Position numbers and translations under genes: made by a program
Notes under the pieces: generated by a model
The model's input: only the letters and a program-made list of their open reading frames with translations
Database searches by the model: none
What the model was told of the DNA's origin: nothing
Shown: positions 5,381 to 43,200 of the stretch, piece by piece
Numbering within the stretch: position 1 is the first letter of the stretch
Layout of the letters: the number at the start of each line of letters is the position of its first letter
DNA from: Morchella semilibera
Lineage: Eukaryota > Ascomycota > Pezizomycetes > Pezizales > Morchellaceae
Direction: 5' to 3'
NCBI GenBank assembly: GCA_009192285.1
Contig: WBVU01000019.1
Coordinates: 186,001-250,000 of the forward strand
Length of the DNA: 64,000 bases

Positions 5381-5751
5381 ACTTTCATTAATTCACAACT
5401 GACCAGAATCATCCAAAGCAATGGGTTGGTTCACGGATTTGGGCCTATCCCTTGGACGGGTAGATTCGCGACCAACCACTTTCAGCTAATATTAGCCTCG
5501 TGTGGTAACTGTTGGGAATTCTTGTTTGGTTCGTTTGTTGCTATTTACCATAAGAAGAAATATAACTCCCCTACTAGGGTCTAGGCCGTGAATTTAACTC
5601 TCATCCGTCTAAGAGATATATAGAGAGATGAAATAAACAAAAGAAATCATATCTCGGGAAGATGAATCCAAATAAGGAAACTATCTTCCCGATACAGAAA
5701 GAAGCTGATGTCAGCTTTCTTTCTCTGGAATGCAATGTCCAGCAAGAAGTA
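5381..5751. other. Intergenic region with two adjacent hairpins
   Basis: This is the region upstream of the aminopeptidase gene. At 5654-5663 and 5683-5692 a perfect 10-bp inverted repeat (TCGGGAAGAT / ATCTTCCCGA) forms one stem-loop. Immediately after it, 5695-5708 pairs with 5711-5727 with a one-base bulge and a 2-nt loop. No gene is supported. Confidence 0.55.
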
Positions 5752-6142
5752 CTCGGGTGTGAACCAAAGTGATCAGAACTCTACGACAATTGGTGGAGAA
5801 TATGTGGGTGCGACAGGCTGGGCCAATAAGACCTGCCAAGAATTCTTATCTTGAATGGGGGAAAAAAGTCATCAGAACTTTTCCAAGATCCTCATCAAAA
5901 AATCCAAAAAAAAATCCAAAAATATTGTATCTATCAGTACCTTCTCTATATGCTATTTGGATACAAATTTGGCTGTGCAGAGAAAACTTTCAGGAGGCAG
6001 CAGTAAAATTGAGGACCAAGTTCTGGGCTCTGAAGTTTCCTGGGGCACACGGTTGATATAAGCCCAGGGTGGGGCCAACTTGGCACTCCAGGCCAACCAG
6101 ACCAACCAGGAGCAGTTCTGATCACTTACCCTCAACACCCGG
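5752..6142. mobile_element. Candidate MITE with TA flanks (Tc1/mariner-like)
   Basis: A 391-bp non-coding segment has terminal inverted repeats of about 28 bp. The left end reads CTCGGGTGTGAACC, then AAGTGATCAGAACT at 5767-5780. The right end, read as its reverse complement, is CCGGGTGTTGAGGG, then AAGTGATCAGAACT, with the inner 14 bases identical (plus-strand 6114-6127). A TA dinucleotide flanks both sides (5750-5751 and 6143-6144), as expected for Tc1/mariner-type insertion. There is no transposase ORF, so it would be non-autonomous. It abuts the left end of the larger element. Confidence 0.55.
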
Positions 6143-6153
6143 TACATGCAGCT
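6143..6153 (+). repeat. Candidate target-site duplication, left copy
   Basis: The 11-mer TACATGCAGCT recurs exactly at 12745-12755 on the other side of the element. ACATG-type words are common in this genome, so chance cannot be fully excluded. Confidence 0.45.
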
Positions 6154-6203
6154 ATAGGAGTGTACGGTTGAGGGGGAGGGTTCAAACGAACAGGGGGAAT
6201 GTT
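6150..6203 (+). repeat. Left terminal inverted repeat of the element
   Basis: This segment matches the reverse complement of 12664-12720: AGCTATAG near the outer edge, GGAGT, GGTTC, and a perfect 14-base inner block at 6190-6203. The middle is diverged with small gaps. Confidence 0.6.
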
Positions 6204-6278
6204 CCGGTGTGGTGGCTTAGAGTGCCAAGAAATGCCAAGAAACCACTAACCAATTTTAATATATATATTTACATGATA

Positions 6279-9200
6279 TTATAGGGCTAAGGCTTTCCTC
6301 CGTTCAAGTAATTCTAATTCTTTTTCAGCCAATTCCTGTTGTTCCTTTTTAAGCTTTAACTGTGCTTGTTTTAATTTAAGAATTTCCCATTCATCTTCGA
6401 TTGTTGGAATATAGGGCCGTTTGGTTCCCCCAATTGAGTTGCGGGAATTTGAATTAGAAGTTACTACTCCCGATGAGTTTGAAAAAATTGGGAGGTCGTT
6501 ATTGATTCTGATTGGGCATGGAGTACATATCGGGAACTCAGAATTCAAGTCAGAAATAGGTGAATTTATCGTTGGTGTTATCGTACTTTGAGTATTGGTG
6601 CTATCAACATAATTAAGTTTCCTGGGTGTATGATTTTCAAGACGGCGATTATCTATTAATTAATAAGTAATTGTTAAGTACTTGTTAAATATTTTACTTA
6701 CTTGCTCTAATAAATTTTTGTTTTGCTCTATTCTGTGCGGATTTATTACGCCAACTATGAACAATACCGTAAGTATCTTGAATTTTGCATTGTGATAATA
6801 CTTGTTCGTCATATTGTTTTGCACTATAACCACCTATTAGTTAAGTGATTGATAAGTAATTAAATTATTGTTACCTTAAAATAGCTCCAAGAAGTGATTG
6901 TTGGATACCAGAGAAGCGATTTATTTGACTATGTGCCGACTCAACTATATTTGATGTTTTTGCTGCTGCTTCGAAGGCATCTCGATTAATTTTCGAACAA
7001 TATTTATTTAAACCAGATAAGACCCAACGTTGTAATTTATGTTTTGCCCATCCATTCTAAAAAAAATTAATAAGTGATTGATAAGTGTTTAGGAAGTAGT
7101 TTATACCAATTGTGGGTCTTGTGCAATAAAATTTAGAACTTTCAAACAATCATCCCTTGATTGTTGTTCAGGTAAACTCCGCATTTCCGGTTTTAAAGTA
7201 TGTGTTGGATATTTTTCTTCAATGCCTCGAAAAAAATGAATAAGGCAAAAAAGCATTATATGCTCTATATGATCTTGCCAATTCATTTCCGCAATCCCCG
7301 GCATCAAAGAAGTATTCTTAAAGGTACTCGAAAACCAATCACCAAATGCTAAATACCTCGTAAGCACTTATTAATCGATTGTAACTTGATATACTATTAC
7401 CACTTGCTTGCTTTGAACACATATCTGATCGACAAACCCGTAATCCATAACCATGTATATGGTTAAATTTGATAGGACGTTTGTTGGCATAGGCAACCAA
7501 TCTAAAAACAGTATCAAATATTCTTGAATAAGTTTCTTTCGATTCCGAATTGACATATACCCGACAGAGTACAACAACTATACAAGTGTTAATTAATTAA
7601 TAAGTGCTTATCAAGTGCTTATTACTTACTCTTCTTATATCTTTCCAAATAGGTAGCAATAATCCACTCATTTATATTGCCATATACCCGTTTAAATGAC
7701 ATATCAAAATCTACCTCGTAAACACTTTCAAATAATGAAGCCTGTTCATCATTGAATGTAACGATTAAAATATTTGTACCATCATTATATATATATCGAA
7801 TATATGGATTTGCTTCGTTTTTATGATTATTTTGCCATTCGCTAATAACACCTAATTTCTTTTAATAAATACTTGATAAGTGCTTGATAGATGATTTTTA
7901 TATAATATTTACCTGCAAAATCTCTACCTTGTGGGTAATCTAGGAGTTGTTGTCTTCGTAAAAGGGCACCAATTTTACTAATATTCCCTAATGATGCATG
8001 AATATCTGTAATTGTTTTACCGTTTTTGTCTTTTATATATGCTTTTAATTCATCGGACAATAAAAATCCACCTTGAAAATCAGAACTAATCAAAAACAAT
8101 TACTTGTTAAGTACTTACCAAGTGTTAAATTTAATGTATTTTTTCGCGATAAAATATTTTGTAGATCATCGATAATTTGTACAGGTGTTTTGACTAATGG
8201 CGGTGGAATATGCTTATGTATACCGTATGCTGCTAGAAGGATATATGGATATCTATTTATATCTGTCGGGAATAGAATATAAATTTTTGCATCGCATTTG
8301 TATGTAATTAGCTTTCCAGCTCCTTGTCTATGGTTAAAACCTAAAAAATTACTTAGTAATTACTTGATAAGTGCTTATCGATTTTTATTACCGCATTTTC
8401 TTTTCTTAGAACTCATTGATAAAACTTGAGTACAGGAATCCATCGGTCCGCTATATCCATGGTTTATTAGATATTCTAAATATTCATGATTATATGTTTC
8501 GTATGCTGGTAATTTATGAAAGAAATGTTGTTTTTGTCCTGGTTTCCAGTTACTGCAAGTTATCGTATACGTTGGTATTGCACCGGTAATTGACTGTATC
8601 TTTTATTAATTCTCTTTAACATCAATAAACAGGAATATATATCATACCATATAAGAATACTTTCTTATAACTGGACGTGAGTTGGCACATATACTTTCGC
8701 CAGTATTAGGTGATTTACATTGAGAACCTTGACGGAATAATGACATAAGACCATGATATAGCCTAATTAATCATTTAGTAATTACTTAACAAGTGCTTAT
8801 ATTATAATATATACATACGTAGTAGTTTCACTTTGTAAACGTTCAGTATATTGTCCTTCTCCATTATTCATCGATGACATTATATTCTGCCAATCATGAT
8901 TGGAAACTTGCGTATGTTGAAAATCTCTGAATTTAGTGTCGAGAAATTCACAACATTTTACACCTTTACAGGTATAGCTAATACACTTGACTTGTGCTTT
9001 AATATAATCACAAGTCGTAATATAGCCACTACCTTTCTTAGTCATCGAATATTGTATCTATAATCAATTAGCAAGTACTTATCAACCAATTAGATATAAC
9101 TACATTCTGGGAGTAAGTAAAATACTTAGAGTTTAATAAATCCGTTGGACCAAGGTGTATAACATGTCCAATACCCATTTCTGATGTTTCAGGATATTCG

Positions 9201-9730
9201 GGAAATACTTTATGATGTTGAACATGTTCTACAGTTATACTGTCGGTACGTCCAGCACCAAAACATGTAAACTCTTTAGTTATAGCTGTATCTTGCCCTT
9301 GTATGTTCTATTTAAAATTAATTAGCAAGTACTTGTCAAATACTTAATAAGATAAAATACCGGTGTTTCTTTATTTGTACCATCTTTTAAATTAAAGATA
9401 TTACTTTCTTCCTCAAGAAATGTATTTGTCGAAAGATTTAATTCATTGCAGTTTTCTGGTAGAGATACTGCTTCAAAAATATTTCCACAGCTACTATCAT
9501 TATGTTCGGTAAATGCTTGCTAAGTACTTGTTAACTAATTTCTAGTATTAAGAAGGAAATTTTCTTACTTTTGCATTTGAAATAGGATGAATAATAGGTA
9601 ATAAAGATCCTTCGTAATATAGATTTGGGGGTTGTTTACTATTGTAGTAGCCTGAATTCTCTTCTCTACGTACCTGAAATGCTGTCGTAAAAGGATATAT
9701 ATCAAAGGGAGTAGAAGACCGTTGACTCAT
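6279..9730 (-). CDS. MULE-like DDE transposase, 14 exons
   Basis: Model complement(join(6279..6652, 6702..6823, 6875..7056, 7107..7348, 7401..7577, 7630..7851, 7913..8071, 8119..8340, 8392..8593, 8648..8762, 8819..9057, 9104..9307, 9361..9519, 9569..9730)), 926 aa, with every junction in phase and no stop. The N-terminal third has Cys/His-rich patches (CKGVKCCEFL; SQCKSPNTGESIC) that may bind zinc or DNA. A candidate catalytic core follows: Asp about 537 in DFDMSFKRV, an Asp near 613 in VCRSDMCSKQA after HIHGYG, and Glu about 740 in SNIVESAHSQINRF. These are spaced like a Mutator-type DDE triad. From memory, this core resembles uncharacterised proteins abundant in basidiomycete genomes. The C-terminus is a coiled coil rich in Lys and Glu. 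The 13 introns are 46-61 nt, and 12 carry the same 11-bp motif. Family placement is an inference. Confidence 0.75.
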
Positions 9731-10566
9731 TTTTCCTGATATATTTCAATAAGTACTTATCAAGTGCTTTCTTTAATATAGGAGTTTATAACAATTTAGA
9801 TTGAATGTTCGGATCTTGATTGTTGATTCTCATTCTCATTCTACGTTCTATATGAATACCAAAAAATTTATCTACTAGTAATTCTTGGCTAACGGGAAGA
9901 TGCTAAAATACTTTACTTAATTAGGAAATAATAGGATAGACACACTTATTTTGGAAGCGCACTAATAACTAGTGTTTAAGCTAACATATACTATTATAAT
10001 TATTAATTTTAATTTTCAGGTACTAACCCTTATAATACTAAAGAGACGGTAAATTATAAAAATTTTTTTTTACACAATTTCTATATTATGCCACCTCTCC
10101 GCAAATATGAACTCGTCTCCATACGTCCCTCCTCATTTACCGAATACTTTATTATAGAGGTATGTTTTCTAAAAGTTTTATGTATACAACCTTCAAATAA
10201 TTAACAAGTACTTACAAAGCAATTTTTTATTTTAGAAAATGGGCTGTATAATTATTACAGTTATCTATCTTTGCGGAAGTTCCAGAACCATTCGAATTGC
10301 CTGCAGCACAAAATGTGAAAACATTCCTCGGGGTTGCATATATGGTCCTTTTCAGGTTTTACGACGTGATTTAAGGGTCCAGACTGCTCCAGATTGGGAG
10401 ATTTTAAAGGATTCCTGTGAAGCTCCAAGTTGCCCGCACTGTCCACCACTCCGCAGGACATTACAGAATGAAGAAGCAAATCCGACAGTCTATATGTATG
10501 GACTTCCTATACCAAAGTAAGTAATTGATAAGTACTTATCAATCATATATTAATTATTTGTCATAG
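6653..10566. repeat. Dispersed 11-bp intronic motif (core AAGTRCTT)
   Basis: Introns at 6653-6701, 6824-6874, 7057-7106, 7349-7400, 7578-7629, 7852-7912, 8072-8118, 8341-8391, 8763-8818, 9058-9103, 9308-9360 and 9520-9568 each hold one to three degenerate copies of a unit such as TAAGTGCTTAT or CAAGTACTTAA. So do both introns of the plus-strand gene (10160-10235 and 10517-10566). Adjacent copies repeat every 11 bp. Only the intron at 8594-8647 lacks it. Further copies are in the transposase leader (9745-9775) and after the plus-strand gene (10806-10840). Exons are essentially free of it. Confidence 0.8.
9731..10087. promoter_or_regulatory. Divergent promoter region of the element
   Basis: The transposase gene (leftward) and the Cys-rich gene (rightward) share this 357-bp AT-rich interval. 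Copies of the 11-bp motif (AAGTACTT, AAGTGCTT) lie at about 9749-9770, just before the transposase start. An open minus-strand stretch at about 9790-9905, preceded by an AG, could be an extra 5' exon, but I could not join it in phase. No TATA box is assigned. Confidence 0.4.
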
Positions 10567-10795
10567 AAACTGCCATGGATTTTTTTATGGATTTCCAGAA
10601 ATTTCTGAAGGCCGTACTATACGAGGTTTAAATTTGCCATGGTTTGAAACGTATCCTGAAGGTTTTATTCGTACTAGTAGTAGGAAACGAAGAGCTTCAG
10701 AATTGTTGAGCTTGGATAGTGATAATAGTTCAGAGGAGGAGGACAAGTCTATTATTCTAGATTCACGTGTAAATAGTGTAGAAAGAACAATGTAA
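10088..10795 (+). CDS. Element-encoded Cys-rich protein of unknown function
   Basis: Model join(10088..10159, 10236..10516, 10567..10795), 193 aa. The short first exon encodes PPLRKYELVSIRPSS. The middle has Cys clusters (CSTKCENIPRGC; CEAPSCPHCPPLRRT) that could form a zinc-binding fold. The C-terminal exon has a basic stretch, RTSSRKRRASELL, followed by a Ser/Asp/Glu-rich acidic patch, which resembles a nuclear localisation signal beside an acidic region. I do not recognise the family. It is divergent from the transposase and shares the intronic 11-bp motif, so it is probably an accessory protein of the same element, for example for DNA binding or regulation. The second intron begins with overlapping donors; GTAAGT after ATA CCA AA keeps phase. 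Confidence 0.55.
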
Positions 10796-11119
10796 CTATA
10801 AAGTAGACAATTATTTGATAAGTATTTAATAAATACTTAATCATAGGATATCACTCGATTCTATCATTTTTACAAAATTCATTGTTTGGAACCAAATATT
10901 ATAAAAAGAGACGTTACATTTATTAAAATTTATATGATAAATTATATGTTGAATATCCTATTACTACAACTTATATATATATAAAAACAATTAACGAAAG
11001 ATAAATATCAATCATAGATTATCAATCATCTCCCTAACAAATGATATATAATTCACGGAAAAAACTAATTAGAAACTTTATTAGAAAGAAATAAATAAAA
11101 ATTTGGACACACATTTATT
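10796..11119. other. AT-rich spacer in the element
   Basis: This is a very AT-rich stretch with the 11-bp motif near 10806-10840 (TAAGTATTT, AATACTTAA) and short TA runs at 10970-10985. No gene is seen. Confidence 0.5.
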
Positions 11120-11405
11120 AATAACGAGCAAGCACTTGACAAGCGCTTGTCCTTTCAACTGACGTTTACCAATAACGAGCAAGCACTTGACAAGCGCTTG
11201 TCCTTTCAACTGACGTTTACCAATAACGAGCAAGCACTTGACAAGCGCTTGTCCTTTCAACTGACGTTTACCAATAACGAGCAAGCACTTGACAAGCGCT
11301 TGTCCTTTCAACTGACGTTTACCAATAACGAGCAAGCACTTGACAAGCGCTTGTCCTTTCAACTGACGTTTACCAATAACGAGCAAGCACTTGTCAAGCA
11401 TTTAT
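11120..11405. repeat. 51-bp tandem repeat array
   Basis: There are five full 51-bp units starting at 11120, 11171, 11222, 11273 and 11324, plus a partial sixth from 11375. They are nearly identical. Each unit contains AAGCACTTGACAAGCGCTTG, two copies of the 11-bp motif found in the element's introns, embedded in a unique 30-bp spacer. Because 51 is a multiple of three, both strands stay open, but this is a by-product of repetition and not evidence of a gene. Confidence 0.9.
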
Positions 11406-11542
11406 TTAAATGCTGTTAGATAGGTTCTATGAGTTGTAAAATAGGTTAAGTACTCATCAAAGAATTATTTATATATACAAAATCCAATAGTACTATTAGG
11501 ATTATGGGGTGGCGAAAAATTTCTATGTATTTTGATAACCAA

Positions 11543-11586
11543 CAAGTGCTTGTCAAGTGCTTGTCAAGTGTTTGTTAAGTGCTTAT
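11543..11586. repeat. 11-bp tandem array (CAAGTGCTTGT)x4
   Basis: Four head-to-tail units: CAAGTGCTTGT, CAAGTGCTTGT, CAAGTGTTTGT, TAAGTGCTTAT. This is the cleanest form of the motif dispersed in the introns, and it defines the unit length as 11 bp. It lies just past the 3' end of the zinc-finger gene. Confidence 0.9.
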
Positions 11587-11630
11587 TGATTATTGATAAA
11601 TTTGAATTCAAACTTTTATTTTTTTTCTAA

Positions 11631-12299
11631 CTAATTCTTTTTTCCGCGGGTTGCATATCTCTTAACGGGGACAACAATTTCCTCCTCAGAGTCAGTAAGA
11701 TTACCAACGGAACTCAAAGGACTAGATTCTCTGTCCTCCTCAACCACATTTTCTTGCTCCTCCTCTTGCTCCTCCTCTGTATCATTTTCCTCTCCATCGT
11801 CAGAGTCAGTAATACGTTCAGCAGATTTGTAGCCCTTATTGTTGTCATTTTTTTTTCTAGCAACTGTATTATGCTTCCGAATTTCCCTGCCGTTATTTTC
11901 CTCCTCTTCGTAGTCGTCATCACCCTTAATTCTATTTTCAAGAACATTAAGTGCTTCGTTGAAACAGCCAAAGCTGAATGCACCCATACGTCCCTTGAAA
12001 AGCTCAAGATCTTTCAAGTGCTTAGCTCTTTTAACCTTATTTTCGGGAAGGTGGACACCAAGAACATGAGATCGAAGATTTGAAGTGTTACTGAAAACGG
12101 TACCACAAATATCAATACCAGAAACATTCTTGATACGACAAGTAGTCTCATGAGGAAAGATAGTAAGAATTCCATCAGTTGGCCAAGCAGGACAAGCAGA
12201 GTCATCGAAAAGCTTTGTCAAAATCTTCTTAAGCTTTGCTCTATCACTGGGATCTCCAGCCTCCTCCCTAGCACGCTCAATCTTTTTTTTAAAGGACAT
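11631..12299 (-). CDS. Zinc-finger, acidic-tail protein of the element
   Basis: Single exon, 222 aa. A basic N-terminal helix (SFKKKIERAREEAG) is followed by a Cys/His pattern, TCRIKNVSGIDIC then GTVFSNTSNLRSHVLGVH. This gives two Cys and two His with a C2H2/BED-like second half and suggests a single zinc finger that contacts DNA. The C-terminal half is highly acidic (DDYEEEENN, ENDTEEEQEEEQE) and the end is basic (RYATRGKKN). I do not recognise the exact family. It lies inside the inverted repeats and next to both motif arrays, so it is a candidate for the factor that binds the 11-bp motif; that role is inference. Confidence 0.55.
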   Translation of the reverse strand: MSFKKKIERAREEAGDPSDRAKLKKILTKLFDDSACPAWPTDGILTIFPHETTCRIKNVSGIDICGTVFSNTSNLRSHVLGVHLPENKVKRAKHLKDLELFKGRMGAFSFGCFNEALNVLENRIKGDDDYEEEENNGREIRKHNTVARKKNDNNKGYKSAERITDSDDGEENDTEEEQEEEQENVVEEDRESSPLSSVGNLTDSEEEIVVPVKRYATRGKKN

Positions 12300-12401
12300 A
12301 CTAAATAATATTAGTACACAAGCTATATTAAAAGCTTGGAATAGCTATACCTGACAAAAGACTGCGCCATTTAAAAGTAGAGGGTTACTTCTTGATTGCT
12401 T

Positions 12402-12580
12402 GTGGTTGCGCGCTGTGGATTGCTTCCTGCCTGCTGCTTCCTGCCTGTGGTTGCGCGCGCTGCTGGGACCACCATGCATTAGCAGTTTCCCTCTGACTCC
12501 GGGTTTGACATGTCATATAGAGACTCACCTACTAGTAGGGGGATTTGTTCCAGTGGTTGCGCGCGCTGTGGATGCTTCCT
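12402..12580 (+). repeat. GC-rich subterminal repeats (GTGGTTGCGCGC)x3
   Basis: Copies of GTGGTTGCGCGC at 12402, 12447 and 12553 stand out in a GC-rich patch at the right end of an otherwise AT-rich element. Two of them continue into CTGTGGAT and TGCTTCCT, so the shared unit is about 30 bp. They lie just inside the right inverted repeat. No gene is seen here. Confidence 0.55.
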
Positions 12581-12663
12581 TGTTTGGGGGATCGCTTGCC
12601 AGTGGGTGGGAGATCGCTTCTCTCTAAGAAGTGGGATGGGATCGCTGATTACTAAGCGAGCTC

Positions 12664-12720
12664 AACATTCCCCCTGTCCACCCGAACCTTCCACATTTAC
12701 TACCGACTCCAGCTATAGCT
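12664..12720 (-). repeat. Right terminal inverted repeat of the element
   Basis: This is the reverse-complement counterpart of 6150-6203. It includes the exact block AACATTCCCCCTGT at 12664-12677 and an outer AGCTATAGCT palindrome. Confidence 0.6.
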
Positions 12721-29644: not shown

Positions 29645-32600
29645 TTAATACTCAAAATCGTCGTCAACGCCTTTGCTTGCCTTTTTGTTTCCGCTCGTCA
29701 CTACCTCCTGCCTCTTGTACATCTCCGCAACCTGGGAGCTGGTCGTTGCATCATCAGCGCCCTTGTCATCTCGAACCTTGATGAACCGCGGGAACCGTAG
29801 CGAGATTCCCCTCCCTTGCCGGTATCGTCTGCCATGCCGGCAGCGGCCTTGTAGACGGGGCTGATAGATAGATCCGCGGTCTTAACTTCCCAAACGATCT
29901 TGGGCTCAAACCAGACATCGGGCTGCACATTGTTCCCCTTATCGTGGGAGTAGTATGGCTTTGGCCTTTGGATCTCTAGTTCCGACAGAAGCGTGTGGAA
30001 CTCCTCGAGGTTTGCTTCAGAGAACCCAGTACCAATTTTGCAAATGGTTTCGTAAATCTGGGTAGAGGGATTGTAGCATGCCAACAAGAAAGCGCCATAG
30101 CCACCTGTACGTTTCCCGCGACCGTGGTAGGCGCCAACGACAACGAGGTCGAGGGAATCGCCGATGCCGGCAAGGTAGTCTTTTTTAACTTTAAGCCAGT
30201 TTCGACTGCGCTTACTGGGCTCATAGCCACTTTCTTCACCGTCGAGCATCTTGACCATGAGGCCTTCGCAGGAGGATCTGACACTCTCTTCGAGAAAAAC
30301 TTGAATTTGTTCAAGATCATTGGCATCAGCGTAGGTTGCAAACGTAAATTCACCCTCAATCTCGGTGAATGACTCATGCATAAGGCGGCGGCGTTTTTCA
30401 AGGGTTTCTTGGCACAAAGACTGCATTGGAACATGTTAGAATTATCATAAACAAGAAAACAGGAGGGCAGCATACCTTGCCGTTAAGAAATAGCAGGTCA
30501 AACGCAAAAACGCAAACCTTCACCTTGACATCTTCGACCTTCACATCCTTCCTCTTTCTAGTCATCAACTGCTGGAATGGTAACACTCTTTTCTCATCCT
30601 TATCCCATGCTACTGCCTCACAGTCCAACACGAAACTCTCGACGCCGGGCTTAACCCATTTGTCAAGAATAAAAAGGATATCCGGGTACTTCTTGCTTAA
30701 ATCCTCAGAGTTACGTGAAAAGATCCTTGTGATACCCTTAGTAGGGGTTGTTGTCTCGGATATGGAGGTCGCGGGGTACGAAATTGAAGAGTCGGGGGAT
30801 ACGAAGTGAATCTGTGCACGCTCCCCGTCGTATTTATATTCACAAGTAAACCGCTTGTTTTCGAAGCGGTCAAGAACTTCAGAAATAGCTTTTGTAGGTT
30901 TGGCTAACATTGGTTTTAAGGGAACACCTAGGATCAACTTAGCACACAGGCAGAAATCCGAGAAAAAGGGATGACAGTACCAGGCTGGAGCCTACAATGA
31001 TCCTTCAAGTTCATCAAACCATGTTTCATCATCATAGGAATAATGACATCGTAACTTGGTAGTTCACTATACTACTGTTAGTGGTGTAGCTTCAACCACG
31101 CCCATCGACAGACATACCTGAAAACGCTTCTCAGCTTCAACTCTGCCTCGGTCAACATCGAGACACTAGCCTCGCGCCCCTTCTGTTCCATCTCGTGCAC
31201 AATCACGGCTTGACTTAGTGCAACAATCACTGTATTCTCGGCTAACCCAGTTCTTAGCTTCCCCTCCAGACCGCGGACTAAGTACTTTGCTTCATCACCC
31301 TTGGCGGCAGCCAACAATTTCTTAATACCAGCGACCTTTCGCCCCTGCCCACCTTCACCTTTGATGGTTGCAATCTCAAAAAGACCCTGATGCACACTTT
31401 TAACCGTCAATGGCTTTGGCTTAAACAGTGTCCCTTGTTTGTTCCTACTCTTCATAGCTACCATTCCAAGATCCCCAATTTCATTTTGATCTTCCCGAAT
31501 CATGGCCATACTTCGTCCGCAACTCTCGCTAATAGCCTTCATTAGTAGACTTTCCCCTATTCCTAGCTCCACCCCTTCATAGTCCGCCGCCAGTTTATTA
31601 ATCATTAAATGAATGGCCATTAATAAATCGTCTGGGGTCAATCGCAACACCTGACGCAAAAAGAGGGATGCATGGGATAACTTTTCAAGTCTTTTGGACG
31701 TCCCCTCGGCAAGTGTAAAGGTTTGGACCAACGCAGCATAAGGAGTTGGCGTACCAGCTGCCCAGTCAGGGAATGGATGTGATGGAGCTTTCCCGGAAAG
31801 TTTTTTTGCAACAACTTGCCGGGCCTTGTCTGCTATAGCCGGCTTCATGTCATCATCAGAACCAACCCCAACATCTTCCTCAGCAGCTGATTTAGACCCT
31901 TCATCTAATCCCTCAACTTCTTCAGATTTTATATTGCTCTTTTCTGGAGACGTTGGCCTCTTCTTCTTCGGACTCTCCAAATTTTTGGTGCCTGGTTTCC
32001 TCTCACGCTTTTTGTCGGATTTATCGCCATCCTCATCCCCCCACCCCTCCTCCTCCTTCTTAAACGTAAAACCTAACCCTTCATTTGCTTCCTTTGCTGG
32101 TACCTTTTGTCCTTTCGGGGTTGGTAGGGCTTTCTTAGGAGTCTTAGCTGAACGCTTATTCCGTTTAGTTACTGGTTCATCGTCCTCAACCTCTGATGCT
32201 GTTTCTTCGGGCTCATTTTTTATGGGTTCCTTGGTCTTTTTCTTGAGCTCCTCGAGTGTAACTTCTTTAGGATCTTTGATAGATAGCCGCTTGCTCTTCT
32301 TGGTTATTAATTCATCATCTTCATCTTCCACCTCAGTCTTTATCTTTGCTCCCCCCACTTTTGGCTTCTGGGGTTCTTTGGTGGATTTCTTGCTCTTGAC
32401 CGGCGATGGACGTCTCCCAGGTTTTGCTACTGGCTCTATGTCTTCTTTTTCGGAGGCGGAACCTTCCTCCCTTTCCGCCGCCTTTGGCTTCTGGGGCCCC
32501 TTGGTAGATTTCTTGTCCTTGGCCGGCGATGAACGTCTTCCGCGCCTTATTGGCCCAAGGTCCTCCTTTTCGGAGGCGGAACCCTCTTCCTCCGCCACCT

Positions 32601-33170
32601 TTGATTTCTGGGGTTCTTTGGTGGATTTCTTGCCCTTGACCGGCGATGAACGCTTTCCGCGTTTTGTTACTGGCTCTATGTCTTCTTTTTCAGAGGCAGA
32701 TTCCTTTTCCTTTTCCACAGTCTTTGAGGGCCTACGACCACGCTTTTTAGAAGCTACAGGTGTGTGTTAGAATGACCTATGCCAATTAATTGCAGGGGAA
32801 AGATTTCTCTAACCAATTCTTTTCACGGGAACCGCATCTTCGGCTTCATTGGTTCCGGCCATGACGGCGTCGCCGTCTTCATCCCTAACTAACTCTGGAG
32901 CTTCATCGAGCTCCCTGTCGACGGTTTTGTCTACCCCTGCCACCTTCACATTATCCTTTTTCGGGACCTTAAGTTTTGTCTGTTGCTGTACCGGGGGCTT
33001 CGTTCCAGCGGGCAAGGTGAAGAATCTCCTATATCCATCAACATACGTTAGCCCACAAAATCCCAAAAGGTATAAAAATGTACAGCCCAACCGAAACAAC
33101 AGGAACCGAAACCAGACCCCAGCGTCAATTGTTTTTTCACGTACCCGAGTGTTGCTTGTTTAGGCGGCAT
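29645..33170 (-). CDS. cdc9: DNA ligase I (ATP-dependent), frame broken near the C-terminus
   Basis: Model complement(join(29701..30420, 30476..30927, 30981..31066, 31118..32753, 32814..33028, 33145..33170)) if read strictly, 1044 aa. The family C-terminus continues in another frame to a stop at 29645. Ligase I seals Okazaki fragments. The PIP box QATLGRFF starts at residue 5, split by the first intron. A long Lys/Glu-rich linker carries a tandem repeat. The DNA-binding domain spans about 330-640. The active-site motif [12 protein letters not shown] has the adenylated Lys near residue 685. Further motifs are GLMVKML and WLKVKKDYL. Around 29808-29817 the frame shifts inside [11 protein letters not shown]; the remaining conserved residues ([28 protein letters not shown]) lie in the shifted frame. 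This may be a sequence error in a G-run or a real lesion. Confidence 0.9.
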
Positions 33171-37249: not shown

Positions 37250-40200
37250 ATGACTTCTACCATTGAACACATGGATTCCACCGAGAAGGTTTGATCTCCT
37301 CTTTTTCCGTTATTTAATTATTTGCCTTAAAAGCTAAATTTAAATGTACACGAAGCCTATCCTCGAACCTATTTCTACATCTACAGATTCCCATTCGATA
37401 GAGGTTACAGAAAACCAATCAAAATCACATAATGCCAAGAACATGGGCACAACTACACCTGAGGTTGAGGGAGAAGAACAACAGATGATCGCGGCTGTAG
37501 AGGATTATCCTACAACACCCGTATCAGTAATAGATCCCAAGTCTGATTCCGTATTACGGTTGTCAGAAACTTTGGAGACTGAGACAGAGGATGCTCCGCT
37601 ACCCCCATCCTCATCACTTGGACCGTTACCCATTGTAGACTCGGAAGAAGCTCAAGAGAAGGCTCTCCCAGAGGAAACTCCGCCGGAAAAAGATATCGAA
37701 GAAGTCCAGAAGCTACATCCAGAGACAGGGTCATTAGTTGAAGGTTCGCTTTCTCCTAAGGATGAGCATGAAACGGCCCCAGAAACAACAGATCAGCCAC
37801 AGGTCGAGGAGACGCCACCGTCAGAGGCGCAGGAGAAACCACCTATAGTCGATGCCAAATCTGAGAGTGTCGACGCCGAACCGCGGGAAGATGGCGAGAG
37901 GGATGTTCCGGAAGTGGTGGTAGAGTTGACCGCTGAAAACCAACCAAGCCACGGCGACGATCTTGGACCCGATTCTACGCCTGGACAGAAAGATGCATTC
38001 GAAAAGCGACAAGCTGATGCTGAACCCGATGTGCTTCTTATCGTTGAGGAACCCTCAAACCCTGAGGTTGTTCCAGACGAGGAAATAGCAGCTCAATCGA
38101 GCGAAATGGAGAAGAAGGAACCTCCTACCGCCGAGGAGAAGCCACTTTCGGAAGAAGAGACAGAGAAACAGCATCCTGTAGAAGCCGAAAAAGATGGCGC
38201 TACTGATGTAGGCCCTGTTGCATCTGAAGTAGAGGTGCAAGACCAAAAACACGACGAGGAGGGACGAGAACAAGAAGGGCTTGCTGATGTTGAGGCGGCT
38301 CGCATTAAGGCTGAGGAGCAAGCTGAAGCCGAGCGCTTACGACTCGCGGAAGAGGAACTGGAGCGTGAAAGGCTTGCCGAAGTCGAAGCCGCCCGCGTCA
38401 AGGCTGAAGAGGAAGAAGCAGCTCGAGTAAAAGCAGAGCAGGAAGCCGAAGCAGCTAGAATCAAGGAAGAAGAGGAGGCAGCTCGATTGAAAGCAGAACA
38501 GGAAGCCGAGGCCGCCCGCATCAAAGCCGAGGAAGAAGAAGCCGCCCGCATCAAGGCTGAAGAGGAAGAGGCAGCCCGTGTGAAAGCTGAGCAAGAGGCC
38601 GAAGCTGCTCGGATCAAAGCTGAAGAGGAAGCCGCCCGCATTAAGGCTGAACAAGAAGCCGAGGCTGCTCGGATAAAGGCCGAAGAGGAAGAAGCTGCCC
38701 GTCTGAAAGCCGAACAGGAAGCCGAAGCCGCCCGGATCAAGGCAGAAGAAGAAGCCGCTCGTATCAAGGCCGAAGAGGAAGAGGCAGCTCGCATCAAAGC
38801 CGCAGAGGAAGAAGCTGCCCGCATCAAGGCCGAGGAAGAAGAAGCAGCCCGGATAAAGGCCGAAGAGGAGGAGGCAGCCCGTCTCAAGGCAGAACAGGAA
38901 GCCGAAGCCGCCCGCATCAAGGCTGAAGAAGAAGAAGCCGCTCGTATCAAGGCCGAAGAGGAAGAGGCAGCTCGTGTGAAAGCCGAACAGGAAGCCGAAG
39001 CCGCCCGCATCAAGGCCGAAGAAGAAGAAGCCGCTCGCATCAAGGCCGAGGAGGAAGAGGCAGCTCGTGTGAAAGCAGAACAGGAGGCCGAAGCCGCGCG
39101 CATCAAGGCTGAAGAAGAGGAAGCCGCCCGCATCAAGGCCGAGCAAGAAGCCGAAGCAGCCAGAATCAAGGCCGAGGAAGAAGAAGCAGCCCGCATTAAG
39201 GCTGAAGAGGAAGAAGCCGCTCGCATCAAGGCCGAAGAGGAAGAGGCAGCTCGTGTGAAAGGAACAAGCCGCCGCATCAGGCCGAAGAAGGAGCTCGGGA
39301 AAAGGCCGAACAGGAGCCGAAGCCGCCCGCATCAAGGCCGAAGAAGAGGAAGCCGCTCGCATCAAGGCCGAGGAGGAAGAGGCAGCTCGTGAGGAAGAAG
39401 AAGCAGCCCGCATAAGGCCGAGGAGGGAAGCCGCTCGATCAAGGCTGAGGAGGAAGAGCGCCGTTAAAGGCAGAACAGGAAGCCGAAGCCGCCCGGATCA
39501 AGGCAGAAGAGAAGAGGCAGCTCGCATTAAAGGCGAGGAGAAGAGCTGCCCGGATCAAGGCCGAGGAGGAAGAGGCAGCCCGTTAAAGCCGAGAAGAGGC
39601 CGAGCTGCTCGGATAAGGCGAGAGGAAGAGCTGCTCGTTGAAAGCGGAACAGAAGCTGAAGCCGTCGCATTAAGGCGAAGAGGAGGAGGCAGCTCGCATT
39701 AAAGCTGCAGAGGAAGAAGCTGCCGCATCAAGGCCGAAGAGGAGGAGGCAGCTCGTCTCAAGGCAGAACAGGAAGCTGAAGCAGCTAGAATTAAAGGCCG
39801 AAGAGGAGGCAGCTCGACTGGAAAGCCAGAACAGGAGGGCCGAGGCCGGCCCGGATCAAAAGGCTGAAGAAGAGAAAGGCCGCCCGGCCATCAAAAGCTG
39901 AAGAGGAAGAGGCAGCCCGTGTGAAAGCTGAGCAAGAGGCCGAAGCTGCTCGGATCAAAGCTGAAGAGGAAGCCGCTCGGATCAAGGCAGAAGAAGAAGC
40001 CGCTCGCATCAAAGCCGAAGAGGAAGAGGCAGCTCGTGTGAAAGCCGAACAGGAAGCCGAAGCCGCACGCATCAAGGCCGAAGAAGAAGAAGCCGCTCGC
40101 ATCAAGGCCGAAGAGGAGGAGGCAGCCCGTCTCAAGGCAGAACAGGAAGCCGAAGCCGCCCGTCTCAAGGCAGAAGAGGAAGAAGCTGCTCGTCTGAAAG

Positions 40201-43200
40201 CGGAACAGGAAGCTGAAGCCGCTCGCATTAAGGCTGAAGAGGAAGAGGCAGCTCGCATCAAGGCCGAAGAAGAAGAGGCAGCTCGAGTGAAAGCTGAACA
40301 GGAAGCCGAAGCCGCTCGCATCAAGGCCGAAGAGGAGGAGGCAGCCCGTCTCAAAGCAGAACAGGAAGCTGAAGCAGCTAGAATTAAGGCCGAAGAGGAG
40401 GCAGCTCGACTGAAAGCAGAACAGGAGGCCGAGGCCGCCCGAATCAAGGCTGAAGAAGAGGAAGCTGCGCGTGTCAAGGCAGAAGCAGAGGAAGCCGCCC
40501 GCATTAAGGCCGAGCAAGAAGCTGAAGCAGCTAGAATCAAGGCAGAAGAAGAGGAGGCAGCCCGCATTAAGGCCGAGCAAGAAGCTGAAGCAGCTAGAAT
40601 CAAGGCAGAAGAAGAGGAGGCAGCCCGTCTCAAAGCAGAACAGGAAGCCGAGGCCGCCCGTATCCAAGCTGAAGAGGAAGCCGCCCGCATCAAGGCTGAA
40701 GAGGAGGAGGCTGCCCGTATCAAAGCTGAGGAGGAAGCTGCCAGGATCAAAGCTGAACAGGAAGCTGAGGCTGCCCGTATCAAAGCCGAGGAAGAGGAAG
40801 CCGCCCGCGTGAAAGCCGAACAGAGGCTGAGGCCGCCCGCATTAAGGCCGAAGAGGAAGAGGCTGCCCGCATCAAGGCCGAAGAGGAAGAGGCTGCTCGA
40901 ATCAAGGCTGAAGAGGAGGAGGCTGCCCGTATCAAAGCTGAGGAGGAAGCTGCCAGGGTCAAAGCAGAACAGGAGGCCGAGGCTGCCCGTATCAAAGCTG
41001 AAGAGGAAGCTGCCCGTATCAAGGCTGAAGAAGAAGAGGAGGCCGCTCGCATCAAAGCCGAGGAGGAAGCTGCTAGGATTAAAGCTGAACAGGAAGCTGA
41101 AGAGGCTCGAATCAAGGCCGAGGAAGAGGCGGCACGCATAAAGGCCGAGGAGGAAGCAGCTAGAATCAAGGCCGAACAGGAAGCAGAAGCAGCCCGCCTT
41201 AAGGCTGAAGAGGAGGAGCGCCAGAGACTTGCCGCCGCCGAAGCTGCCCGCATCAAGGCCGAAGAAGAGGAGGCTGCGCGCATCAAGGCAGAGCAGGAGG
41301 CTGAAGCTGCCCGTATCAAAGCCGAAGAGGAGGAAGCCGCCCGCGTGAAAGCCGAGCAAGAGGCTGAGGCTGCCCGGATCAAAGCCGAAGAGGAAGCTGC
41401 CCGCATCAAGGCAGAAGAGGAGGAGGCCGCTCGCATCAAAGCCGAGGAGGAAGCTGCCAGGATCAAAGCTGAACAGGAAGCTGAAGAGGCCCGAATCAAG
41501 GCGGAGGAAGAGGCTGCCCGCATCAGGGCCGAGGAGGAAGCCGCCAGGCTCAAAGCCGAACAAGAAGCTGAAGAGGCCCCGAATCAAAGCTGAAGAAGAG
41601 GCAGCCCGCATCAAGGCTGAAGAGGAAGCCGCAAGGATCAGAGCAGAGCAGGAAGCTGAAGAGGCCCGAATCAAAGCCGAAGAAGAGGCAGCCCGCATCA
41701 AGGCCGAGGAGGAAGCCGCCAGGATCAGAGCAGAGCAGGAAGCTGAAGATGCCCGGTTAAGGCTGAGGAAGAGGCTGCGCGCATCAAGGCCGAGGAGGAG
41801 GCCGAAGCCGCTCGTATCAAGGCTGAAGAGGAGGAGGCCGCTCGCATTAAAGCCGAGGAGGAAGCTGCCAGAATCAAAGCTGAACAGGAAGCGGAGGAAG
41901 CCCGCCTTAAGGCTGAAGAGGAGGAGCGACAGAGACTTGCCGCCGCCGCCGAAGCAGCCCGTATTAAAGCTGAGGAGGAAGAAGCTGCCCGTGTTAGGGC
42001 CCAGGAAGAAGAGGCTGCCCGACTTAAGGCTGAGCAAGAAGCCGAAGAAGCGCGCCTCAAGGCCGAGGAAGAAGAGCGCGAGAGGCTTGCCGCTGCCGAA
42101 GCAGCTCTTATCAAAGCTAAAGAAGAAGAAGCCGAAGCCGAGCGATTGCGATTACTTGCAGAGGAACAGGAGCGGGAGCGACTTGCTATCGAGGCTGCAA
42201 GGATCAAGGCCGAAGAGGAAGAAGCTGCTCGGGTCAAGGCCGAGGAAGCCGAGCGTCTCCGACTTATCGAAGAAGAGCAGGAGCGAGAGAAGCTTGCTGC
42301 CATTGAAGCCGCCAGAATTAAAGCTGAAGAGGAGGAAGCCGTCCGAATTAAGGCAGAAGCAGAAGCAGCCAGGATCAAGGCTGAGGAGGATGAGGCTGAA
42401 CGTCTTCGATTGATTGAAGAGAAAGAAGACCAGGAAAGAAAGGCTGAAGCCGAAGTCATCAAGGAAAACGATCAAGGTAAGTTTAGTTCCCTTGTGCCCT
42501 GTGCAAAAGTCTCTCTGACAGTTATAGCCAAAAATATTGTGGAACCAGGTGTATTTGTCGATAAATCCAGCGGTGAAACCATCGTCTCTGAGGATTCTGG
42601 GTTGAGCGCTGGTATCATTGCTGCTTCTGTTCTTGGTGGCGCTGCAGCTCTCGGCGGCGGCGCTGCAGTCATTGCCCTTGCTTCTAAAGACAAGCCATCT
42701 TCAGATGATGGGAAGCTAGCTCAAGACAACGAGGAACAGATCATTGAACCAGCCCCCCAGACTGGTCCATCACCAGTTCATGGAGTTATTATCCCAGAAT
42801 CGGAGATCAAGAAAGCTGTGAGGGATGCGGATACCTCAGGAGCTCCGGCGATTGTCATCTCATCTCCACCAACTTCACCCACTGTAGGAAAGCATCCAGG
42901 TGGAGAAGATCCTTCTGCGGAGTTCATTGAGCCTACTCCCGGTGTTTCAGAAACTCCGGCGGCCAGCACAAGTGAGCAAGAATCAGGTGAGATATTCTCT
43001 CACCCGGTATGGAACCAGTCAATTACACCCTTCTTACACTATTCTTTAGAAAATACCCCCGAAGGTGTTAGACAAAGGCTTGCCGAAGCCAACGCACGTA
43101 GTCGGCCTGGCAGCAGCAGCAATAATACAGTCTCGGCGAGGCAACATCGCAATGTTATGCAAGCGTTCTGGAACTTCATGCTTTTCGGGTGGCTTGGTAA

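Follow-up and report, generated by a model that had tools for sequence, protein, structure and literature searches.

A palindromic motif repeated at an 11-bp pitch in the introns and spacers of a three-gene transposable element of Morchella semilibera

The window analysed here is the whole 64-kb stretch of contig WBVU01000019.1 of the ascomycete Morchella semilibera, and window coordinates are positions within it. At 6158-12709, we identified a three-gene transposable element of 6,552 bp lying between 9-bp target duplications, whose introns and spacers carry a short palindromic motif at a regular 11-bp pitch. All gene and intron models were predicted from the sequence. The genome searched comprised 56.8 Mb on 23 contigs and holds four further insertions besides the window copy, C16 (five in all), named C2, C1a, C1b/C1c (a split copy) and C1d. 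The guanine-plus-cytosine (GC) content of 1-kb segments is 0.30-0.38 for 6001-12000 versus 0.43-0.69 in the other segments up to 24000. The limits and genes of the element are the following.

6149..6157, no strand: left target-site duplication CAGCTATAG; the same 9 bp are found at 12710-12718
6158..12709, no strand: whole element; imperfect terminal inverted repeats that start GAGT and share ACAGGGGGAATGTT; both ends common to the C2 copy
12710..12718, no strand: right target-site duplication, the same 9 bp as the left one
6279..9730, minus strand: gene A, candidate transposase; 14 predicted exons, 13 GT-AG introns, one open frame of 928 amino acids (aa); no Pfam match
10088..10795, plus strand: gene B; three exons, two introns, 193 aa; no Pfam match
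11631..12299, minus strand: gene C, candidate motif-binding protein; single frame of 222 aa; zinc-finger-like C54, C65, H78 and H83; acidic tail

The gene A model is a prediction, because two of its boundaries were moved to other GT-AG sites: with the first boundaries it ended at 766 aa, and to hold the frame intron 5 was given a different donor and intron 12 the acceptor that follows. The first 13 exons of this model are of even size (mean 186, coefficient of variation 0.21), and none of 100,000 random placements was equally even.

We defined the motif unit as the 10-bp palindrome YAAGYRCTTR and, unless stated otherwise, allowed no more than one mismatch per site. Genes A and B together have 791 bp of intron sequence, in which we counted 24 sites, and 14 of their 15 introns carry the motif (12/13 in gene A and 2/2 in gene B), exactly as a first-pass annotation of the window had claimed. 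The exons of both genes hold a single site in 3,369 bp (nine at up to two mismatches). Elsewhere in the element, sites are found in the spacer 10799-11630 (19 in 832 bp), in gene C (two in 669 bp) and at 9731-10087 (two in 357 bp), and no site occurs in 6158-6278, on the 3′ side of the transposase gene, or in 12300-12709. The unit had also been placed in the transposase leader, the 3′ flanks and two tandem arrays; the leader, the 3′ side of gene B and both arrays do contain it, but 6158-6278 does not. The motif-bearing features, together with the sole intron that lacks the motif, are listed below.

6653..6701, minus strand: intron 13, unit pair 6664/6675
6824..6874, minus strand: intron 12 (frame-keeping acceptor chosen), unit pair 6842/6853
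7057..7106, minus strand: intron 11, unit pair 7071/7082
7349..7400, minus strand: intron 10, unit 7361 and a partner with two mismatches 11 bp off
7578..7629, minus strand: intron 9, unit pair 7601/7612
7852..7912, minus strand: intron 8, unit pair 7866/7877
8072..8118, minus strand: intron 7, unit pair 8097/8108 at the donor; the in-register window runs on into the exon
8341..8391, minus strand: intron 6, unit pair 8357/8368 and a weaker in-register unit
8600..8647, minus strand: intron 5, the sole intron without the motif
8763..8818, minus strand: intron 4, unit pair 8779/8790
9058..9103, minus strand: intron 3, unit 9072 and a two-mismatch partner on each side
9308..9360, minus strand: intron 2, unit pair 9326/9337
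9510..9568, minus strand: intron 1 (9520-9568) and exon-side partner; unit 9521 at the acceptor, partner 9510-9519 in exon 2
9750..9770, no strand: unit pair in the gene A leader, units 9750/9761
10160..10235, plus strand: gene B intron 1, unit 10205 and a two-mismatch partner 11 bp off
10517..10566, plus strand: gene B intron 2, unit pair 10518/10529 at the donor
10819..10839, no strand: unit pair 3′ of gene B, units 10819/10830
11120..11404, no strand: 51-bp tandem array, one unit pair per repeat, six pairs
11543..11585, no strand: 11-bp tandem array, four units

This distribution is real and highly non-random. In 500 dinucleotide shuffles of the introns, the mean number of sites was 0.73 and the maximum 4, 71 adenine-thymine (AT)-rich host segments held one site in 3,550 bp, and the host part of the window held 16 in 57,300 bp. 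These values agree with the earlier judgement that the motif is too regular for chance AT-richness. The check proposed there, AT-matched shuffles or host introns, gave the same answer: shuffled introns rarely carried the motif, and none of 47 putative host introns, picked by splice-signal pattern as a rough control, contained a site. Genome-wide, the tandem pattern gave 99 matches at up to three mismatches versus 10 for a reversed control, and 31 of the 32 matches at two mismatches or fewer lay within element copies, the remaining one being on contig C6 (C6:67055). Two loci with one paired site each, L017 on C6 and L018 on C20, were taken as chance; neither had a match in the element-relative searches.

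Neighbouring units less than 40 bp apart lie exactly 11 bp from each other in all 22 cases (13 outside and nine within the tandem arrays), the repeat distance first noticed in the initial annotation, and none of the 16 host sites, to the right of the element, has so close a neighbour. In 11 introns, neither unit of a pair has more than one mismatch, and one of these pairs has a unit in the exon; in the three other motif-bearing introns the partner at 11 bp has two mismatches. The register continues beyond the best pair, where in-register positions score 5.86 matches out of 10 versus 3.81 in shuffles, with none of 2,000 shuffles equally high. Within the introns, the next in-register unit has a mean of 6.75 matches on one side and 6.08 on the other (n = 12 each), the second-next has 4.7-4.8, and still more distant ones come close to the background value of about 3.8. 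Phase 7 is likewise high (5.28), which we took as self-similarity of the unit. With motif-motif pairs left out, identity at lag 11 is 0.433, the top value among lags 5-23.

The clusters are spread along the element, with centres spaced 178-450 bp from 6.67 to 10.83 kb. The position of the motif relative to the splice sites varies: its distance to the acceptor end is 1-28 bases (often 11-25 bases, on the upstream side) and its distance to the donor end 1-45 bases. In introns 8072-8118 and 10517-10566, the motif begins one base from the donor end, and in intron 9520-9568 it supplies the acceptor AG, as had been read from the letters. On the exon side, in-register units adjoin two introns, at 9510-9519 (9/10 matches, intron 1) and at 8119-8128 (8/10, intron 7); the claim that exons are essentially free of the motif holds for their overall density but not at these two junctions. 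When all exon flanks are pooled, the in-register mean is only 4.01 versus 3.3-3.84 in the other phases.

The best overall explanation, to which we give a probability of roughly 0.6, is that the element carries distributed protein docking sites, whose purpose would most likely be the control of its own silencing or transcription. Judged from their sequence and arrangement, the units are quite probably DNA docking sites for a sequence-specific protein. Such a protein would bind each palindrome as a dimer, with the dimers side by side along one helix face, and the sites would be kept in introns and spacers, the coding sequence tolerating them poorly. Less surely, the binder would be encoded by the element itself, gene C being the first candidate, followed by gene B or part of gene A. 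Coating of the element might then prevent silencing or govern transcription, as VANC21 does for VANDAL21; that the docking serves anti-silencing in particular is a tentative and somewhat doubtful proposal by analogy. A more speculative, and unlikely, version is a plant-independent self-coating, in which a zinc-finger-like protein of the element occupies helix-phased pairs, the introns possibly owe their existence to binding arrays, and gene structure has been shaped by site placement. The first-pass annotation had offered two alternatives, introner-like spread and an array of protein-binding sites. The second is better supported because of the strict 11-bp pitch, the dyad symmetry, the spacer arrays, the register that crosses into exons and the ordinary RNA folding; introner-like spread was not supported. 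The simplicity and regularity of the motif, for instance as paired CAAGTGCTTGT, should allow it to be tested directly in vitro.

Comparison of the copies is at most suggestive of selective constraint on the motif. Pairwise, over introns and two noncoding spacers, we counted 18 motif-breaking changes versus 35.8 expected and 14 motif-preserving changes versus 13.9 (Poisson 0.0008). A version with C16-chosen sites and three copies gave 12 breaking changes versus 21.8 expected and 10 preserving changes versus 8.9. For the 77 bases that surround one repeat of the 51-bp array, the differences from C16 number two at the 20 core positions and 17 at the 57 other positions in C1b, and none and two, respectively, in C2.

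Several results weigh against the docking-site explanation. The constraint test is a weak one, with pairwise comparisons that have the C16 branch in common and are not independent. Counted per column, the core is variable at 15 of 168 positions versus 154 of 1150 in the background (P 0.11), and the degenerate positions are not more variable than the core (13/112 versus 15/168, P 0.54). Substitution rates in the motif and in the rest of the introns are 0.039 and 0.035 for C2, 0.013 and 0.018 for C1a, 0.039 and 0.059 for C1b, and 0.155 and 0.174 for C1d, and a 22-base stretch with both intron 13 units has been lost from C1a. At exactly three mismatches, 18 of the 67 genome-wide tandem matches lie outside the element, and the reversed control has its 10 matches. 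As for silencing, a domain search found C5 DNA methylase domain(s) over the cut-off in the genome, and the C-to-T excess at CpG in the copies is modest, so methylation of the element is not established. The case for gene C as the binder consists of a sub-threshold C2H2 zinc-finger match (PF00096, E 0.0049, 17.7 bits, under the 25.2-bit cut-off) and conserved Cys/His residues, and its structure model is poor (mean pLDDT 46) and unfit for a fold search. Additionally, the VANC domains DUF1985 and DUF287 had no match in gene C (Pfam, E 0.01) or in genes A and B (E 1).

Some of these results are what a neutral satellite would give, that is, an 11-bp tandem repeat seeded across the element and decaying without function. 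Plain substitution rates near the intron average, the non-significant column test and the lost bases in intron 13 of C1a fit such a decay, as does the variation in array length between copies: the 51-bp array has six repeats bearing the unit pair in C16, two in C2, three in C1a and two in C1b, and the 11-bp array has four, four, six and one units, respectively. A decaying satellite does not, however, readily leave most introns with two strong units and a taper on both sides, or place sites in 14 of 15 introns with exons at background, and the pairwise test was short of motif-breaking changes; we regard it as decidedly unlikely.

An introner-like origin, in which a unit made up of the 11-bp repeat spread and generated the introns of genes A and B, is very unlikely. 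The letters of the unit are already splice-like, with GTAAGT and CTTAG at opposite ends, the motif directly adjoins the donor of two introns and the acceptor of a third, and weaker in-register units continue inside introns past the best pair. Even exon size could also be counted for it, together with the introner insertion in nucleosome linkers reported in part of PMC9860276, but splicing constraints can likewise yield evenly sized exons. Against such spread, nearly all of the close tandem matches are confined to copies of the element, the register enters exons, and the unit forms intergenic arrays. Comparing intron positions between copies, as had been proposed earlier, we found the introns at aligned places, although the splice dinucleotides were not kept in all (13/15 in C2, 10/10 in C1a, 12/14 in C1b, 1/1 in C1c and 1/5 in C1d). 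Similarity among introns without their best units scored 1895 versus 1691 in shuffles (maximum 1796), an excess that the shared register may explain, and whole-intron homology outside the 11-bp register could not be shown. The introns may nevertheless have arisen from 11-bp arrays.

Equally, it is highly improbable that the motif has its role in RNA, as an intronic splicing signal, a regulator or a structure. The unit does occur in introns of both genes, often at a short distance upstream of the acceptor end, and overlaps splice-like letters. But it also lies behind gene B and in the arrays between genes B and C, partner units sit in exons at two junctions, and neither splice site is at a constant distance. 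Dyad symmetry is a usual mark of DNA sites, and the folding of the intron RNAs is ordinary (mean z 0.05 over 15 introns). Because the register enters exons beside two introns, and because of the varying splice-site distances, the ordinary folding, the palindromic unit and the arrays between genes, the evidence points to sites that act as DNA rather than RNA. Finally, sites bound by the transposase and required for transposition, akin to the subterminal repeats of CACTA elements, would fit a short repeated motif nearly private to the element, and subterminal motifs are known in other superfamilies, but this alternative deserves little credence with the motif interior and sites missing from about 500 bp at the left end and from the final 400 bp at the right end.

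Nonsynonymous-to-synonymous ratios (pN/pS) for gene A are 0.38 versus C2, 0.33 versus C1a, 0.50 versus C1b, 0.73 versus C1c and 0.72 versus C1d; for gene B, 0.29 versus C2, 0.22 versus C1a and 0.81 versus C1b; and for gene C, 0.38-0.78 across copies. All copies other than C16 have at least one stop in some gene, where covered. A parallel with fast-evolving VANC proteins found no support, as gene C does not seem markedly faster than gene A across copies. No relative of gene A residues 400-830 or of gene C was found at E 0.001 in a large protein set (gene A 1-399 and gene B were not queried), and 327 gene A residues compared with viral contigs gave seven pattern-matching stretches, none a relative. 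Within the genome, a 443-aa open frame holds a relative (C11:889469-889948, L029:4469-4948) 32% identical to gene C, with the Cys/His positions and the acidic tail kept. It sits in DNA of host-like GC content, and a tandem repeat search of the surrounding L029 found no 11-bp or 51-bp array.

The target duplication is 9 bp long in all four insertions with both ends seen, exact in C16, C1a (GCTCTGGCA) and C1b/C1c (GTAAAGATA) and 8/9 identical in C2; the C1d fragment shows about 17% divergence in both exons and introns. The terminal inverted repeats are present but imperfect, with the first four bases and a 14-base block in common. According to a section of PMC6446971, Mutator-like elements (MULEs) have target duplications of 8-11 bp, and some have no terminal inverted repeats. 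The duplication length and the repeats of our element fall within this description. For a MULE-type DDE transposase, gene A gave no Pfam match up to E 1 and no meaningful PDB match (two, with E 0.55 and 0.78). By eye only, we noted a D/D/C-x2-H/E-like pattern in gene A that resembles what we take to be the MULE pattern. In the right-hand 300 bp or so (about 12400-12709), C1a and C1b (L009 and L012) are only 66-72% alike to C16, compared with 90-97% in gene A parts; the right end has a separate history, perhaps through exchange between subfamilies. Searches for empty allelic sites through the left flank of C16 and that of C2 were uninformative, as these flanks match many genome places. Several searches matched paired contigs (such as C12/C13, C9/C10 and C21/C22) at near-equal coordinates, which suggests two haplotypes or nuclei in the assembly.

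Miniature elements have inserted into some copies. A 137-bp element (CATCAGCAA...TTGCTGATG), common in the genome, lies inside the motif core of one C1d intron, a shorter diverged one of about 107 bp lies in the motif core of a second C1d intron, and C1b has one about 25 bp past the unit pair 3′ of gene B (loci L014, about 5533-5640 and 6171-6308, and L012, about 5817-5957). The ends of the 137-bp element resemble the PlavakaB termini, CATCA..TGATG, given in part of PMC12730594. A preference of this element for the motif was looked for and not seen: 11 other copies viewed, two of them with the same flanks, show no motif at the target.

Elsewhere in the window, one protein has a fungal Rad9-like Rad53-binding domain. 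An imperfect tandem array of great length spans 38379-41892; its periods, from 27 bp upwards, are numerous and overlap, and its consensus encodes E/A/R/K-rich repeats. About three 117-bp repeats at 32355-32697 share an open frame with a DNA ligase N-terminal domain and lie upstream of it. Rfam gave no match in the window.

Among known systems, introners, as described in part of PMC9860276, are similar in that several introns share sequence and are evenly spaced; here, in contrast, no spread past the element was seen, no introns are near-identical, and the register reaches exons and spacers. Near-identical introns at many genome places were not found by the genome-wide searches, which used the motif by itself and the DNA of the element. 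The TNPA sites of En/Spm are subterminal transposase-binding repeats. They too are a short repeated motif private to one element, whereas the present motif is internal, mostly intronic and absent near both ends. Fungal DNA transposons that carry TET/JBP dioxygenase genes, with target duplications named as 2-8 bp in part of PMC12730594, share with our element a fungal host and an extra gene possibly acting on silencing, but Pfam scans of genes A, B and C found no such domain. Among the titles listed in our search of the open-licence PMC literature, none dealt with intron motifs of this kind in a fungal element, which is not proof of absence.

The closest parallel in layout is VANDAL21 of Arabidopsis. 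Its anti-silencing protein VANC21 binds YAGTATTAY, with stronger signal in introns, intergenic DNA and terminal non-coding DNA, and a high density of this motif is unique to VANDAL21 loci, where the motif regions are often tandem repeats that gain or lose units, introns included (Hosaka et al. 2017, PMC5735166, in part). Silencing and anti-silencing have been located in the same non-coding regions (a section of Sasaki et al. 2023, PMC10398659). The VANDAL elements belong to the Mutator-like group, and where the table of PMC6446971 lists a target duplication for them, it is 9 bp long. The Morchella element is likewise multi-gene, and its short motif, specific to the element, is concentrated in introns and intergenic DNA and rare in the rest of the genome, with tandem copy number varying between copies. 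It differs in its fungal host, in its other, palindromic motif, in the strict 11-bp pitch with pairs in most introns, in lacking sites in its terminal non-coding parts, and in genes A, B and C, which match no VANC domain; it thus resembles VANDAL21 by layout only and, on domain content, is not a VANC member. If its sites are bound, the element would offer a clean system for silencing evasion by elements and a test case for introns kept or made as room for regulatory DNA inside coding regions. It would then be a separately evolved transposon that, like VANDAL21, marks its length by private protein sites, outside plants and in a far more regular layout.

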